From NCBI GenBank assembly GCA_037042185.1, contig JAXQJY010000031.1:1488001-1552000 (forward strand): a stretch of DNA of 64,000 nt, read 5' to 3'. The notes under the pieces are model-generated. The model ran no database searches and was not told where the DNA came from. It worked only from the letters and a program-made list of their open reading frames with translations. The position numbers and the translations under genes were made by a program. Numbering within the stretch: position 1 is the stretch's first letter; each line of letters opens with the position of its first letter. Of this stretch, positions 28,118-56,200 are shown one piece after another. This DNA comes from Sordariomycetes sp. S80-01Y. Its lineage: Eukaryota > Ascomycota > Sordariomycetes.

Positions 28118-28676
28118 GATCTGTATGAGGTACCAGTGACGAATTCTTTTTGTTCGGTTAGCGATGTATTCTGTTAGATACCTGAATTGTATGTGTTAAC
28201 TTCATCTGTCTTCTTGTTATTGGGCCTGTCTCCGAGACAGTGTAGACTGTCTGTGGTTGCGCAGAAGCCTGACACATGACTGGTACCTAGGCTGACTACG
28301 AGGTATGTGCAAGCAACTCGTTGTGCCGTGATGGGTTTAACTAGTTCACCGCATCCAAAAGAATGACAATCCACATCGAGTCACGACAGCTTTATCTCAT
28401 GGAAACATGTCAATAATGTTCTATGCATCGATTCGTTCTACTTCATCTGCTCATAGACCTAAGCTAGCTAAAGTACACCCTCAACCGCGTTCAGTCTTGG
28501 GAATTATGGCCGGCATGCGAACCAGCATGCACGCAAATCATCACGCAGTGTAAATCAAAAGCCCGAAAACAACCGAAATCCGTGTGCTCGTTTAAGAAGC
28601 CAAGCCAGACCAGACCGTCAAACTCCGGCGTAACTTTTGTCTCATTACCCATATGCTGTTGCTAGCGAGGGGACAT
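28118..28676. other. Convergent 3' spacer
   Basis: 559 bp between the Tubby-like gene (+) and the Hsp90 gene (-). AT-richer 3' UTR-type DNA, no gene. Confidence 0.5.
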
Positions 28677-30840
28677 TTAGTCAACCTCCTCCATGGCGCT
28701 GTCGCCGGCGGCGGTGGCCGGGGCGTCGCTGGTGGGCACAGCTTCGGCGGGGTTGGTGTCGTCCTCCTCGACGTCGAGACCGATCTTGACGAGGTTGTGG
28801 ATGCGCTCGGCGAAGCCGCTGGGCTCGTCAATGGTGAAGCCAGAGACGAGGAGCGAGGTCTCGAAGAGGAGCTGGACGATGGACTTGACGGTACGGTCCT
28901 GCTCACCGTCGGCCTCGACCTTCTTCTTCAGCTCCTGGATGATGGGAGACTTGGGCGAGATCTCGAAGGTCTTCTTGGAAGACATGTAGCTGGACATGGA
29001 GGTGTCGCGGAGGGCCTGAGCCTTCATGATACGCTCCATGTTGGCAGACCAACCGAACTGGCCAGTACGGATGGCGCAAGGAGCGAGGCCGAGCTTGTGG
29101 GAAACGACGACCTTCTCAACCTTCTCGCCGAGGACGTTCTTGAGGGACTTAGCGAGGGACTCGTACTCCTTCTCCTGCTCCTCGCGGGCCTTCTTCTCCT
29201 CCTCGGTCTCCTCGAGCTCGAAGTCCTTGGTGATGTCGACGAGCTTCTTGCCCTCGAACTCCTTGAGCTGAGTCATGGCGTACTCGTCAATGGGGTCGAC
29301 GAGGTACAGAACCTCGAAGCCCTTCTCCTTGAGCGCGTCAAGGAAGGGAGACTTGGAGACAGCACCAAGAGACTCGCCAGTGATGTAGTACATGTTGTTC
29401 TGGTGCTCGGGCATGCGAGTGACGTAGTCCTGGAGCGAGGTGAGCTCGTCACCAGACTTGGTGGAGTTGAAGCGGAGGAGCTTGGCAAGGACCTGGCGGT
29501 TCTGGGTGTCCTCGTGGATACCGAGCTTGAGGTTCTTGGAGAAGGCGGAGTAGAACTTGTCGAACTGCTCCTTGTCCTCGGCGATCTCCTGGAAGAGCTC
29601 AAGAGACTTCTTGACGATGTTCTTCTTGATGACCTTCATGATGCGGTTCTGCTGGAGCATCTCACGGGACAGGTTGAGAGGAAGATCCTCAGAGTCGACA
29701 ACACCCTTAACGAAGGACAGCCACTCAGGGATGATCTCGGTGGCATCGTCGGTGATGAAGACACGGCGGACGTACAACTTGATGTTGTTCTTGGTCTTCT
29801 TGGTCTCAAAGAGGTCGAAGGGAGCACGCTTGGGCACGAAGAGGATGGCGCGGAACTCGAGCTGACCCTCGACAGAGAAGTGCTTGACAGCGAGGTGGTC
29901 CTCCCAGTCGTTGCTGAGGGACTTGTAGAAGGAGGCGTACTCCTCCTGGCTGATGTCAGAGGGGTTGCGAGTCCAGATGGGCTTCTGCTTGTTGAGCTCC
30001 TCCTCCTCGATCTTGCTCTCCTTGACCTTCTTGGTCTTGGGCTTCTTCTCCTTGTCCTCCTCCTCGTCGTCGACCTCCTCGACCTTGGGCTTCTTCTCGT
30101 CATCCTCCTCAACCTCCTCGACGTCAGCATCCTCATCGGGGACCTCCTTCTCGGTCTCCTTGAGGACGTGGAGGTAGATGGGGTAGGAGATGAACTCGGA
30201 GTGCTTCTTGACGACCTCCTTGATCTTGGCCTCCTTCAGGTACTCGGCCTGCTCATCCTTGAGGTAGAGGATCATGGACGTACCGCGGCCGAGCTGCTCG
30301 CCCTCGGTGTCCTCGGTGATGCTGAAGGTACCACCGGCGGAGGACTCCCAGATGTACTGGTCGTCGTCGTTGTGCTTGGAGATGACCTTGACGCGGTCGG
30401 CGACAAGGTAGGCGGAGTAGAAACCGACACCGAACTGACCGATCATGGAAACGTCAGCGCCAGCAGTCAGAGCCTCCATGAACTGCTTGGTGCCTGAGCG
30501 GGCAATGGTACCCAGGTTGTTCACGAGATCCTGAAACAGTTAGTCGTAGTTCTTTGTTGTATCAGAAATGGTATGTACATACAGCCTTGGTCATACCGAT
30601 ACCGGTATCGCGGATGGTGAGGGTCTTGTTGACCTCATCGGGGATGATGTCGATGCGCAAGTCCTTGCCAGAGTCGAGCTGGCTGGGGTCGGACAGGGCC
30701 TTGTAACGGATCTTGTCGAGCGCATCGGAAGCGTTGGAGATGAGCTCACGGAGGAAAATCTCCTTGTTGGAGTAGACGGTGTTGATGATGAGCGAGAGCA
30801 GCTGAGAGATCTCAGCCTGGAACTCGAAGGTCTCAGACAT
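28677..30840 (-). CDS. hsp90: Cytosolic heat-shock protein 90
   Basis: ATP-dependent chaperone for kinases and other clients. Two exons (30583-30840, 28677-30530) separated by a 52-nt intron give 703 aa, the normal length. The first exon starts [10 protein letters not shown] and carries the ATP-lid residues, including [11 protein letters not shown]. The GHKL nucleotide pocket continues with DTGIGMTKA and [15 protein letters not shown]. An acidic Lys/Glu linker at about 210-265 precedes the middle domain (catalytic Arg in the [14 protein letters not shown] segment). The protein ends MEEVD, the TPR co-chaperone docking peptide of cytosolic Hsp90. A spliced leader is likely (5'-UTR intron at 30875-30959) and heat-shock elements lie upstream. 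A 614-codon open frame on the opposite strand is a shadow of the biased codon use here. Confidence 0.99.
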
Positions 30841-44812: not shown

Positions 44813-46405
44813 ATGGCTTCAAGTCGAGTGACGACGGCGGCTTTGCCGACGACCTTCTTGCTATCAATCGCAGCGTTCGCGACACGCGCAGCCGCTCACG
44901 ACCACCATGGCGAAAGCGAGATACCCGAAGGCGAGACCGTCACTCTCGAGCCCCTCGTACGGCACCTTCCGTAGCGAACCCCCGTATAACGACTGACAGG
45001 ATAGGATACGGTGATGTGGATTCACATCTTTATTCAAATGCTCGCTTACGGTGTTATTTTCCCTGTTGGCATGATTTTCGGCGTGGGTAGCCCTAACCCA
45101 AGTACGTGAAACGTTTCTAAACTCCGTCTAGATGACCAAGTCTCGCTGGCACGTCCCGACCCAGATCTTTGGCACTATCCTTGCTATCCTCGGATTCTTC
45201 CTTGGCCATGCCCACGGGGGTCGCCAATTTGTCGAATCCAATATTCACGCCACCTTTGCCTGGATTCTTCAAATCCTGCTGGGCGCGCAAGTGGTCCTGG
45301 GTCTGTACCTCAAGGGCCACTGGGAACGCGGCATCAACGGCTTCATCCGCAAGCTCATCCGACCGTGCCATTCGATTCTCGGAAAAGCCATGACGGTATT
45401 GAGCTGGACGCAGATGATCTTTGGTGGCATCACAGCCCTCGGGTTCTGCCAAGGCGAACACGTCGGCCAATGCGCTGCCCACTTCATCATGGGCTCCGCC
45501 TTCATCGGCTATGGCATCATATTGACCATTATTCTTGTGACGGGCCAGGTTTGGATCCGCAACACCGGCCGCTCTCAGGAATTCTACGACTCAGCCGTGA
45601 TCGCAGCATGGGGATGCGTCAACACCTTCACCGAACACCGCTGGGGGACTGATTGGGTGCGCAACGACTGGCAGCATACGACAATGGGCATTATCTGGTG
45701 GTGCGCCGGCTTGGCGGGAATCTGGCTGAGCAGGGATAGAGACGGCCAGCCGAAGAGGAATTTCGTCCCTGGATTCGTTATTTTCATCACGGGATGGGCG
45801 ATGAGCGCGCATCCCCAGGAGTTGATGGTTAGCGAAGCGACGCATAGCATGTTTGGATATACGCTCATGGCTGCTGGTGTGACGCGAATCATTGAGGTTG
45901 CCTTCATTTTGAGGGATGGGCAGTCGATTGACGAGGATGGGCGGAGCTGGAACAGCTTCCAGTTCATCCCTATCTACGTAAGTTCTTTATTTCTTCTTAG
46001 AGGTTAGCACGGAGCGAGGACTAACAAAACTAGCTTCTCTATGCCGCCGGCTTCCTCTTCATGGGCGCTACAGAGGAACAGATGATCCTCGTTGCCGGCT
46101 CAGACATGGACCACGTCGCCTACATTCTCATCCTCTTCTCTCTCGCATTCCTCGTCTTCCTCTTCGCCAACATGCTGGTCAGCCTATACGATCGTCTGGC
46201 AAACCCAGCCGCCGAAGGCAAGGGCTTTGCCAATGGCAACGCCGGGTACTCCAGCGTCAATGGCCGCCCTATGGAGGAAGGCCGAGTGAGGGATGCTGAG
46301 GAGTTCGAGTTGGAGGGGTTGACCAGCGATGACGAGGACGAGGACAGGCCATTGAGGAGGGATGGCGAGAGGAGGGGCCAGGAGACCGGCGTGACAAATG
46401 CGTGA
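44813..46405 (+). CDS. YTP1-like multi-pass membrane protein (DUF2427 + Ytp1)
   Basis: Four exons (44813-44956, 45005-45082, 45132-45977, 46034-46405) give 479 aa. The first exon codes for a signal peptide (about 1-28, ending ATRAAA) and a His/Glu-rich segment (HDHHGES). The DUF2427 part starts at WIHIFIQMLAYGVIFPVGMI and continues with SRWHVP and the HxHGGR-type turn. The Ytp1 part has repeated hydrophobic spans, ending with an acidic Glu/Asp-rich cytosolic tail. About ten membrane spans are visible, with conserved histidines reminiscent of cytochrome-b561-like proteins. Yeast Ytp1 resembles mitochondrial electron-transport proteins, but no activity is proven. The first intron uses the second of two nearby AGs (45003-45004). 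The second has a GTGGGT donor, weaker than usual; both choices are set by frame and by the DTVMWIHIF join. Confidence 0.92.
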
Positions 46406-48643: not shown

Positions 48644-49615
48644 TCAGTGGTGACACCGCTGACGGTTACAAGCGTTGCCACAACCATTGCAATGGTTGTG
48701 GACTTGGACTGCAACGCATCCATGGCCGCGGCAGTTCCCACAAGCGGGCTGACAGCCTGTGCCTCCTCCCTCACATGGACGGGCACATCTGCAGGGAGGG
48801 ACTTCGGGCCCCTGTGTGCCTTGGGGACCCTGAGGACCCTGAGGACCCTGAGGACCTGCTGGGCCACGCTCGCCTAACAAACCTTGAGGACCGGGTCTAC
48901 CTTCGGGACCATGGGGCCCAACGGCTCCGGGTTGACCTGGTATCCCTTGTCTGCCGTCTCTCCCATCCCTGCCGTCCCTTCCAGGGTCTCCTCTTGGGCC
49001 AGGTGCACCAGCCTCCCCATCTCTGCCATCTCTACCGTCTTTGCCGTCCCTCCCATCCCTACCGTCCCTACCGTCCCTTCCATCCCTTCCTGGTTGCCCA
49101 TCTCTGCCATCTCTGCCATCTCTGCCATCCCTCCCAGGTGGCCCAACGGGACCCTGAGGGCCCGGACCTCCGGTATGGCCCCTCGGTCCACGCGTACCTC
49201 TTGGCCCCGGGGGACAGCAAAACCATACCACGCCAGCCTCACTCCGCTTTCTGTCTTTTCTTGATGTTTTCCGGCGGGAGCAATAACACCAGCAGACAAA
49301 AACAGTAAGCACGGCAAAGATACCCAGAAAGACTCCTAGAAGGATGAGTGCTGTATTATCCGAAGTGGCATCACCCGATGACTTGTGTGGATGTGTGGAA
49401 GGGACTGGGGCTGGCTCAGAGGGTTCGCCAGTGTCATAGGCGACATCAGTTGGCGCGGCACCGAGAGTAAATACACCGGCAATTGTTGAACCCGGCCGAG
49501 TAAGAGTAATTGTTCTAAGATGCTGTGTTCGAGGAAGAATGGTAGGGACCCCCGTGACTTCCTCTGAGTGGTCAAAGGATGCGGGCCATGGTAAAGACTG
49601 AGATGGAATGATCAT
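48644..49615 (-). CDS. Transmembrane collagen-like protein with Cys-rich C-terminus
   Basis: Single exon, 323 aa. Residues 1-87 are Pro/Thr/Ser-rich without an obvious signal peptide. Residues 88-112 form one hydrophobic helix ([20 protein letters not shown]) ending in closely spaced cysteines (CWCYC) and a basic flank ([12 protein letters not shown]). Residues 137-271 are 45 unbroken Gly-X-Y triplets: 14 are GRD, one GKD, and a block of four GPQ lies near the end, so a collagen triple helix is expected. The last 52 residues contain 11 Cys and four His, including [11 protein letters not shown]. Fungal collagen-like proteins are known (for example the Metarhizium coat protein MCL1), but there the collagen lies outside the cell. 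The basic flank here predicts a cytosolic collagen domain, unless the protein is inserted the other way. Neighbours give no clue. The start is the first ATG. Confidence 0.72.
48803..49207 (-). repeat. Collagen-type coding repeat (Gly-X-Y x 45)
   Basis: A 405-nt tract of 9-nt-periodic coding DNA within the collagen-like gene. Sub-blocks of near-identical GRD codons and four 9-nt GPQ units (about 48830-48870) suggest growth by tandem duplication. Confidence 0.85.
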
Positions 49616-53221: not shown

Positions 53222-56200
53222 CTACTCAACGTCCCTAACAACCCTGGCTCCAACCCAGGCGTACGGGTACTTCCGCTGGTACCAATTCACGAAGCTCTTC
53301 CTCCCCGCGATCCTCGGGTGCGTGGCCCAACTGCCACCAAGAACCACGTTGTGCTTTCCGTCGAAGAAGTCAGCCGTGTAGCCCGGGTACAGCTCCATCG
53401 GCTGGAACCCCTCGTGCTGGGTGAGGTTGGAGGAGGTCCACTCCCAGACGCCGCCCATGTCACCTTGGCCGGCAAGCTGGTTGCCGAGGTGGGTGACGGG
53501 CATGGGGTGCCAGTTGTTGAAAGACGTGTTTGTGTGAGACAGATCGACGAACAGTGAGGACTGTTCGTCGGTCTGAGTGTTTGAAGGTCGTGATGGTGGC
53601 GTCTCCTCTACACCATCGTTCACAAGATGACTGGGAAGGTAAGCTTCACGTAGCAAAAACAACGATTTCGAAGGACTCACCCGTTCACCGCGGGAATGTT
53701 TGCAGCGAGCTTGCTTCGGAGCAGGTCTTTCTTTTTCTGTGTCTCGACGAACGAGTAGATGCTCTTCGCTTCCTCAAAGGTTGGGATGCGTCCCCCCATC
53801 CAGGCTGCGCAGCCGGCGAGCTCGTCGTAGGACGCAAAGACTGGCCAGTCGAGGGCGTCTTTGAGCGGAACCAGTCCATAGACTGTGCGAACGGAGGTGT
53901 CCCAAAACGTCGCGTTACCATTGGTGTGTCCATTGGCCTCACCCTCTCGCTTCATCCAGGAGGCCGGGATCGCGCTACCACCCGTGGCCTTTAGATATTC
54001 GGCGTACTATGCAGTCAGTCTAAGTCCCCTCATAAATGGTTGTCTGGACCTACATCCTCGTTCGTGATAGGTCGACCCTTGGCTTGGAAGGCGTGTATTT
54101 TCTCCGATCGGGCTGGTTTCTCGTTGTCCCTACATTGTAAGCACTATCCGAATGTCTTCCATGAGGGCCTACTTACCAACCGAAGTGGCCTCCTTGGGTG
54201 GCATCTTCTGGATCGTCCATGCCGATAGTAACAGTCTGCTCCGGAACATCAAACCACTCGTTGGGCACTCTCTTCTTCAGTGCCTCCTGAGCCATCTTCC
54301 CAAAGTCGGGCCTAGCCCTATGAGGGGGTGGGAGAGTCTTTGGACTCTGCAACATCATGTAGAGAAGCGTCTCAAGATGCATGATCTCGTGCTCAAAGCC
54401 AAGCCAAATCGCCCTTCCCACATTGCGAGGAATGTTGGACTGGCCGATTCCGTACAAGCTCAGAAGCCTGGCTCTGACGCGGTCTTGGTAGGCAAGGATA
54501 TCGCCGACAGCGGGCCATGCATCTGGCACTTCAGAGTGATCGTGACATTTGGCAGGATCATCAACGTCAGGGTCGACGCCCCGTTCAAAGATGTTCCAGT
54601 AGTTTGCTGGATGAGTTGCCGGCTCTCCGGTGGTCTTGGTCAGTTGGATATCCAAAAATGTCGGGATATGGCCCAAGTAGAAGATGCACGCATTGCGAAG
54701 CTTGATGGGTTTCTCATTGAGCTCTTGATCAGGGAGCATCTGGCGGGTGACGATGTCCCAAGTTCCCCAAAGCGACCGCCAATCCTGTACAGAGGGGAGT
54801 GGGCTGGCGGCGTAGAGCTCGGGGACCAAGGGGAAGGACAGCTTCGGCTGAAGCTGATGAATGCCTGATGCATGTCAGTTCAACTTCCTTGACCGGTCTG
54901 GAATTCGTGGGGGTGATTTGTGGCAAGGTGTGCCACATGGCCCATTGCGTGATTAACACCCAATAGACATGGATGCGACAGCGTCCACAAGCACTCCGGT
55001 CGAACCAGTCAAGAGGGAATTAACTCACCATATTCATCATGTTTGCTCCAAGTTCGCACTTTCTGCAGCCCCGCGCTATGCCATAGCTTCTGCAGCCCGG
55101 ATACTGAATACTTGAGGCTTTCCTCAATCTTGATGCGCTCAAATGCTTTGATGTGCTGGTCGAGGATGGTGACGTCGCGAATTGGGGTCACGAAGGCTTG
55201 GTGGCGGCCGCCATCTTCGTCGTAGACATACTCTCCGATGACCTTCCAGTCGTTAATGTCGAAGATCTCACGACCAAAGATCTCATTAGCGTGGGCGAGG
55301 CCATTCAAGATGAACCTAGCGCCTTTGTGTTAGCTCAAGTGCAAGTGAAATACGGGGGGATACAAACTCATGTGTGACGCCTTTGGTGTCTGTGGGGATC
55401 TAAAAGTTAGTCTCTCTTCATGCAACCGGAGGACAAGCCTGACCATTGTAGGCGTGGCTGTGACATGTTAGCACATCTCCGATCAAATGTGGATTGGAGA
55501 CTTACTAGACCTTGTCAGGCTTCATGCAAGAGTCAACGCCGAGAAACATGGTATCCTGCGCCTTCATGATACTAGCAAAGCCAGAAAGGAAATCTGCCGC
55601 TTCATCGCGTTGAAAGTTGCCTGCGGCTGTCAGTTTGCGTACATAATGGCGACGTGAGAGTAATTGCTCACCAATGCTCGACCCCAAGTGCAAGATGGCC
55701 TTTGGTTTGCTGTCGATGTTCTGAAGCCATTTCATGCCATCGTCGTAGGTTCCCCAGAGTCCATGGCAGGCGACATGTTTGAAGTCTGGGACTTCGGCAA
55801 GAGTGCGCTCCAGCTCACGAAGGGACAGATCGAGAGCGTAGTAATCCACATCCTTGCCAGCGTCTTCGAAGGCTTGAAGAAGGATCTGGACCTTGCGGAG
55901 GTTCCTGCGCGCGTCAGCTTTGGCGCGGCGCGATGCAGTGCTAGACTCACCCGCTGCCAAGCTCGACTACCATAGATCCAGCAGGAACCTGGGTCGCCAT
56001 GTTTTTGGCTGAAGCTTGGAGAACCTCAATCTCGTGGTTCGTGAGGTAATACTCCTCGAGATAGGTGATCTGTTTTTCAGTCAGCCCGGAAACTCTCAAA
56101 GCTCACTCACAGGCATCTCACATCTTCAAAGAGCTGGAGTCCTCTCTCGTCGTACAACAGCAGCGTCGGGAGCTTTTTGATCCCATTCTCAGGGTTGAGC

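Follow-up and report, generated by a model that had tools for sequence, protein, structure and literature searches.

Described collagens normally lie outside the cell, and the collagen helix is regarded as an extracellular structure; a cytosolic one would depart from that. The MACITs, transmembrane collagens of animals, are type II proteins with a collagenous ectodomain (PMC4678570). In fungi, Mcl1 of Metarhizium is described in immune evasion, and its collagen domain was called 'so far unique to Metarhizium' (PMC7776561); Entomophthora muscae shows an enrichment of the collagen family PF01391 (PMC11105155). Membrane segments are predicted in 10 of 13 Burkholderia collagen-like proteins (PMC4565658). 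The words GRD and cytoplasm are absent from the accessible portion of a review of prokaryotic collagen-like proteins (PMC8968730). None of the passages cited here describes a collagen facing the cytosol. No such protein appeared among the matches listed from open-access literature either, and a search worded for it gave no papers.

Here we analysed a window of 64,000 nucleotides (C14:1488001-1552000) from the genome of Sordariomycetes sp. S80-01Y (30.9 Mb, 16 contigs), in which a single frame joins a membrane span to a collagen repeat. The check for a described family covered Pfam, the sequences in PDB, collections of viruses and prokaryotes, and open-access literature. Our leading reading, put forward tentatively, is a reverse signal anchor inserted N-out/C-in, whose collagen tract would trimerise into a cytosolic rod with a Cys-rich cap. 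We infer the topology, the trimer and the function of the protein from the features set out below.

A membrane span and a collagen repeat in one minus-strand frame

The preliminary description reported a 323-residue frame at 48644..49615 and gave no strand. ORF reading recovered this frame on the minus strand, from 49615 to 48644 and from ATG to TGA; the plus-strand frame at 48644-49615 is interrupted by stops. The encoded protein is divided as follows.

49355..49615, minus: N-terminal tail, residues 1-87, Pro/Thr/Ser-rich (34/87)
49280..49354, minus: membrane span, residues 88-112, its C-terminal end carrying Cys 108, 110 and 112
49208..49279, minus: basic linker, residues 113-136, net charge +6, with Cys 133 and Cys 134
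48803..49207, minus: 45 uninterrupted Gly-X-Y triplets, residues 137-271, 14 of them GRD
48647..48802, minus: tail, residues 272-323, 52 residues with 11 Cys

This order of parts agrees with what had been noticed at first inspection. Pro, Thr and Ser make up 34 of the 87 N-terminal residues, the best 19-residue hydropathy window (2.95) begins at residue 90 within the single span proposed at 88-112, the Gly-X-Y tract holds exactly 45 triplets without interruption (137-271), and the tail is indeed Cys-rich (11 in 52 residues). The whole protein has 16 cysteines, the first at residue 108: three at the span end, two in the linker and 11 in the tail. Residues 1-87 contain no Cys, no N-glycosylation sequon and no visible signal peptide.

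The 323-residue protein matched the Pfam family Collagen (PF01391) with an E-value of 5e-21 and a score of 74.7 bits (cut-off 27.2), and no other family was found in the Pfam scan at E <= 1. When compared with PDB sequences, the tract was most similar to two collagen I chains, followed by chain X of 8zxl, a 780-residue 'spindlefibril/axialfibril' protein. The Cys tail gave no PDB match at E <= 10 and no paralogue elsewhere in the genome; the tail and the N-terminal half were not found in IMG/VR by pattern scans, whose reach is close relatives. A single-sequence AlphaFold model had a mean pLDDT of 48.8 and was confident solely in a membrane helix at 85-116; such a single-chain model cannot reveal a trimer or a triple helix.

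Two neighbours were scanned against Pfam. One (45132-46007) encodes a Ytp1/DUF2427 protein and the other (54173-54829, minus strand) carries a DinB_2 domain; we take the latter frame to resemble the start of an ergothioneine-synthesis protein. A TAF5-like neighbour frame scored 927 bits against PDB 9ynu, the TAF5 chain ranked next giving 326. The window's ORF list also holds frames that, by eye, we take to be Hsp90- and LIS1-like. Such neighbours point to a filamentous fungus; a 5.8S rRNA search gave no match among the 39 of 980 candidates that were scored. On the plus strand, a 614-residue open frame (28653-30497) lies antisense to the 615-residue Hsp90-like frame, itself named by eye, and is probably a shadow of that frame's codon bias.

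Predicted orientation of the collagen part and a second gene

The net charge over 15 residues is -1 before the span and +6 after it. By the positive-inside rule these flanks predict an N-out/C-in protein, in which the collagen tract would be cytosolic. Such an inward-facing collagen would be unusual because collagen rods normally lie outside cells. The same orientation had been proposed earlier on the basic stretch after the span, and as a prediction it holds: the measured asymmetry bears it out and, as described next, a second gene repeats it. We regard the inward topology as a reasonable prediction that the second gene strengthens.

A profile search of the genome gave seven PF01391 matches at E <= 1, lying in five places, with all nine of nine candidates scored. 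One other frame is credible as a collagen by this search.

C10:56276 (G000:C10:54776-57952, frame 1288-1956), plus: second span-plus-collagen frame (L006), 223 residues from the first ATG

L006 begins with a 29-residue N-terminal tail; its span (30-52) is followed by a basic stretch and then by Gly-X-Y, and its flank charges are -1 and +7. Its repeat stays in register; of its first 26 triplets, 21 have Gly and five have lost it. L006 lacks the Cys-rich tail, and its GC3 is 0.375. Against PF01391, L006 scored 34 bits in the genome search, where its neighbours were counted in, and 26.9 in the Pfam scan, below the cut-off of 27.2. Three other places were rejected once their frames had been read. 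The match at C14:817k lies opposite an 810-codon frame, and that at C3:327k is a short low-complexity frame of 77 codons with HWG/GTW repeats. The third, a Gly-rich match on the minus strand at C13:618.6k (L004; G000:C13:617109-620255), has a 649-codon P/T/E-rich frame on the other strand, a case indicating that the antisense strand of Pro/Thr-rich genes can mimic collagen.

The N-terminal half alone had five weak matches in its own genome. Three of the five (L010, L011 and L012; E 0.004-0.03) are like the 323-residue protein in having an S/T-rich N-terminal part and a span with a basic stretch behind it; none of these three had a Pfam family above its cut-off. They differ in that no collagen repeat follows C-terminally, and the similarity is weak. 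The 323-residue frame thus resembles a protein of such a kind in which the collagen repeat would be the cytosolic part.

A rough, uncalibrated contrast was drawn with prokaryotic relatives, of which the best 80 of at least 164 were kept, making up 79 loci; at each of the 79 the listed match range overlaps the Gly-X-Y repeat. One locus had no ten-triplet run. A hydrophobic segment preceded the repeat in 13 loci and was absent there in 65. Several of the 13 segments resemble signal peptides, and the first Met was taken as the presumed start of each protein. Subtracting the charge before the segment from that after it gave a positive value in just one of the 13, with a median of -2. Only two of the 13 are found 40 residues or fewer from the repeat, and the difference is negative for both.

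The main rival reverses the orientation. The protein would then be a type II surface collagen, with the N-terminal tail in the cytosol and the collagen tract and Cys tail outside, forming a disulphide-linked rod of the wall or coat. MACITs have this layout, with a collagenous ectodomain (PMC4678570, in part), a fungal collagen, Mcl1, is described in immune evasion (PMC7776561, in part), and the 11-Cys tail would suit an oxidising compartment. However, in both genes the flank charges (-1/+6 and -1/+7) are opposite to what this orientation would call for, and the P/T/S-rich, Cys-free half would have to be the cytosolic one. We consider this arrangement somewhat unlikely.

The reverse-anchor reading has a difficulty of its own at the N-terminus. 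A tail of 87 residues is long for translocation without a signal peptide. Splice models that could place a signal peptide on an exon further upstream numbered zero under strict and 123 under loose settings, and none among those listed (10 and 6) was judged to be a signal peptide. The most hydrophobic candidate upstream N-terminus, CTFISIMII, requires a poor donor site.

Coding status of the Gly-X-Y tract

Across the 45 triplets, positions one and two of the Gly codon are always G (90 of 90). The third base is mixed (T 15, C 13, G 10, A 7) and differs from its commonest base in 30 of the 45 codons (Fisher p = 4e-19). The 14 GRD triplets are encoded by ten different 9-mers, and 23 triplet types occur in the tract. 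Retention of all 45 glycines while the third bases are scrambled suggests that the tract is under selection at the protein level. A neutral DNA repeat would not hold Gly with varying third bases, and the pattern therefore counts in favour of a gene. TRF detected 9-, 27- and 45-base tandem arrays within the tract; a tandem-repeat artefact as the sole cause was rejected, since Gly is constant while the third bases vary.

Codon usage failed as proof of coding, as 84% of 1000 base-composition nulls scored as high. Measured against a training set of 12 ORFs hand-picked from the window, the frame has a GC3 of 0.45 versus 0.59-0.98, and its codon-usage score of -0.213 falls below all 12 (0.09-0.73) and below four of the five other frames. 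Atypical usage of this sort would be expected of a gene that is young, acquired or expressed at a low level, and likewise of a non-functional frame.

This bears on a second alternative, that of a young, decaying or unexpressed frame in which the repeat is real and the gene is largely or wholly without function. The atypical codon usage and low GC3, to which the GC3 of L006 may be added, are in keeping with it, as are the tandem arrays, the absence of a tail paralogue in the genome and the eroded repeat of L006. Against it, none of the 45 glycines has been lost despite the scrambled third bases, the 23 triplet types do not make a single simple repeat, and all 323 codons are intact. We judge such a frame improbable.

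Helix stability and the putative cytosolic rod

The tract is poor in the proline triplets typical of stable helices, as had been remarked for this locus: GPP occurs once in 45 triplets, and Pro occupies Y in eight of 45. GRD is the dominant triplet (14/45). The charged pairs between Y and the next X are 12 DGR and one each of DGK, EGR, DGE and RGD. Older host-guest work reportedly found a basic X with Asp in Y to be a stable exception to additivity. In the available text of PMC7824840, the stabilising arrangement is Lys-Gly-Glu or Lys-Gly-Asp, with a basic Y and an acidic next X, and charged residues otherwise generally reduce helix stability, Arg in Y excepted. The charge pairs of the tract are mostly in the reverse order of this documented motif. 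The preliminary suggestion that GRD stabilises the helix by salt bridges is thus doubtful, KGE/KGD being the documented form and the tract having 12 DGR, one DGK and one RGD (PMC7824840, in part). The same excerpt reports that hydroxyproline-free recombinant bacterial collagens melt at 23.5-35.6 degrees; bacterial collagens being stable without hydroxyproline, its absence alone does not exclude a helix (PMC7824840). A cytosolic triple helix is possible on this sequence.

The weakest alternative keeps the C-terminal half inside and makes the tract a disordered charged tail with no triple helix, for which the scarcity of stable Pro triplets (GPP 1/45), DGR in place of KGE/KGD (PMC7824840, in part) and the low model confidence in the tract would speak, though a single-chain model cannot show a trimer; it is hard to credit beside a perfect Gly periodicity that is apparently under selection and the stability of hydroxyproline-free bacterial collagens at 23.5-35.6 degrees.

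We return to the reverse signal anchor. Its own span would insert this single-pass protein N-out/C-in, placing the Pro/Thr/Ser-rich tail in the secretory lumen or wall space, where it would probably be O-mannosylated. The C-terminal half would lie in the cytosol, and the Gly-X-Y tract would trimerise the protein into a stiff rod. Each triplet of a collagen helix rises by ~0.86 nm, so that 45 triplets would give a rod of ~39 nm. The Cys-rich tail could cap the rod through metal binding, S-acylation or reversible disulphides, the cysteines adjoining the span may be S-acylated, and the role of the protein would be that of a trimerising spacer or tether beneath the membrane.

The reverse-anchor reading draws on the 45 perfect triplets, the PF01391 match (E = 5e-21) and the constancy of Gly with varying third bases. 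It draws also on the flank charges of -1/+6, the same order with -1/+7 in L006, the similar build of three of the five N-half matches, the lack of any Cys before residue 108, and the finding of a positive charge difference in only one of 13 prokaryotic segments (best 80 of at least 164 relatives). We counted against it the atypical codon usage and low GC3, the 87-residue N-terminal tail without signal peptide, the normally extracellular place of collagens, the reversed charge pairs, the model pLDDT of 48.8 and the loss of Gly in five of 26 triplets of L006. A wider reading, in which the lineage has a class of reverse-anchored proteins with a hydroxyproline-free, trimeric cytosolic collagen rod of ~39 nm, represented by one intact gene with a Cys-rich knob and one eroded gene, appears rather doubtful. 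If the reverse-anchor reading is true, a triple helix would serve inside the cell as a rod that forms in the absence of prolyl hydroxylation, and the protein would offer a simple model of Gly-X-Y trimerisation beside a membrane.

Among known systems, the Aspergillus acl genes are likewise fungal and collagen-like, known here from a cited title. Metarhizium Mcl1, likened by description in the excerpt available, shares with the 323-residue protein a fungal origin and a collagen domain, and differs in being described as acting in immune evasion (PMC7776561). The MACITs (XIII, XXIII and XXV) also have one span with the collagenous part after it (PMC4678570, in part). In the MACITs, however, a short N-terminal part is cytosolic and the collagen lies outside in type II orientation, whereas in the 323-residue protein the N-terminal part is 87 residues long and the flank charges of -1/+6 predict the opposite orientation.
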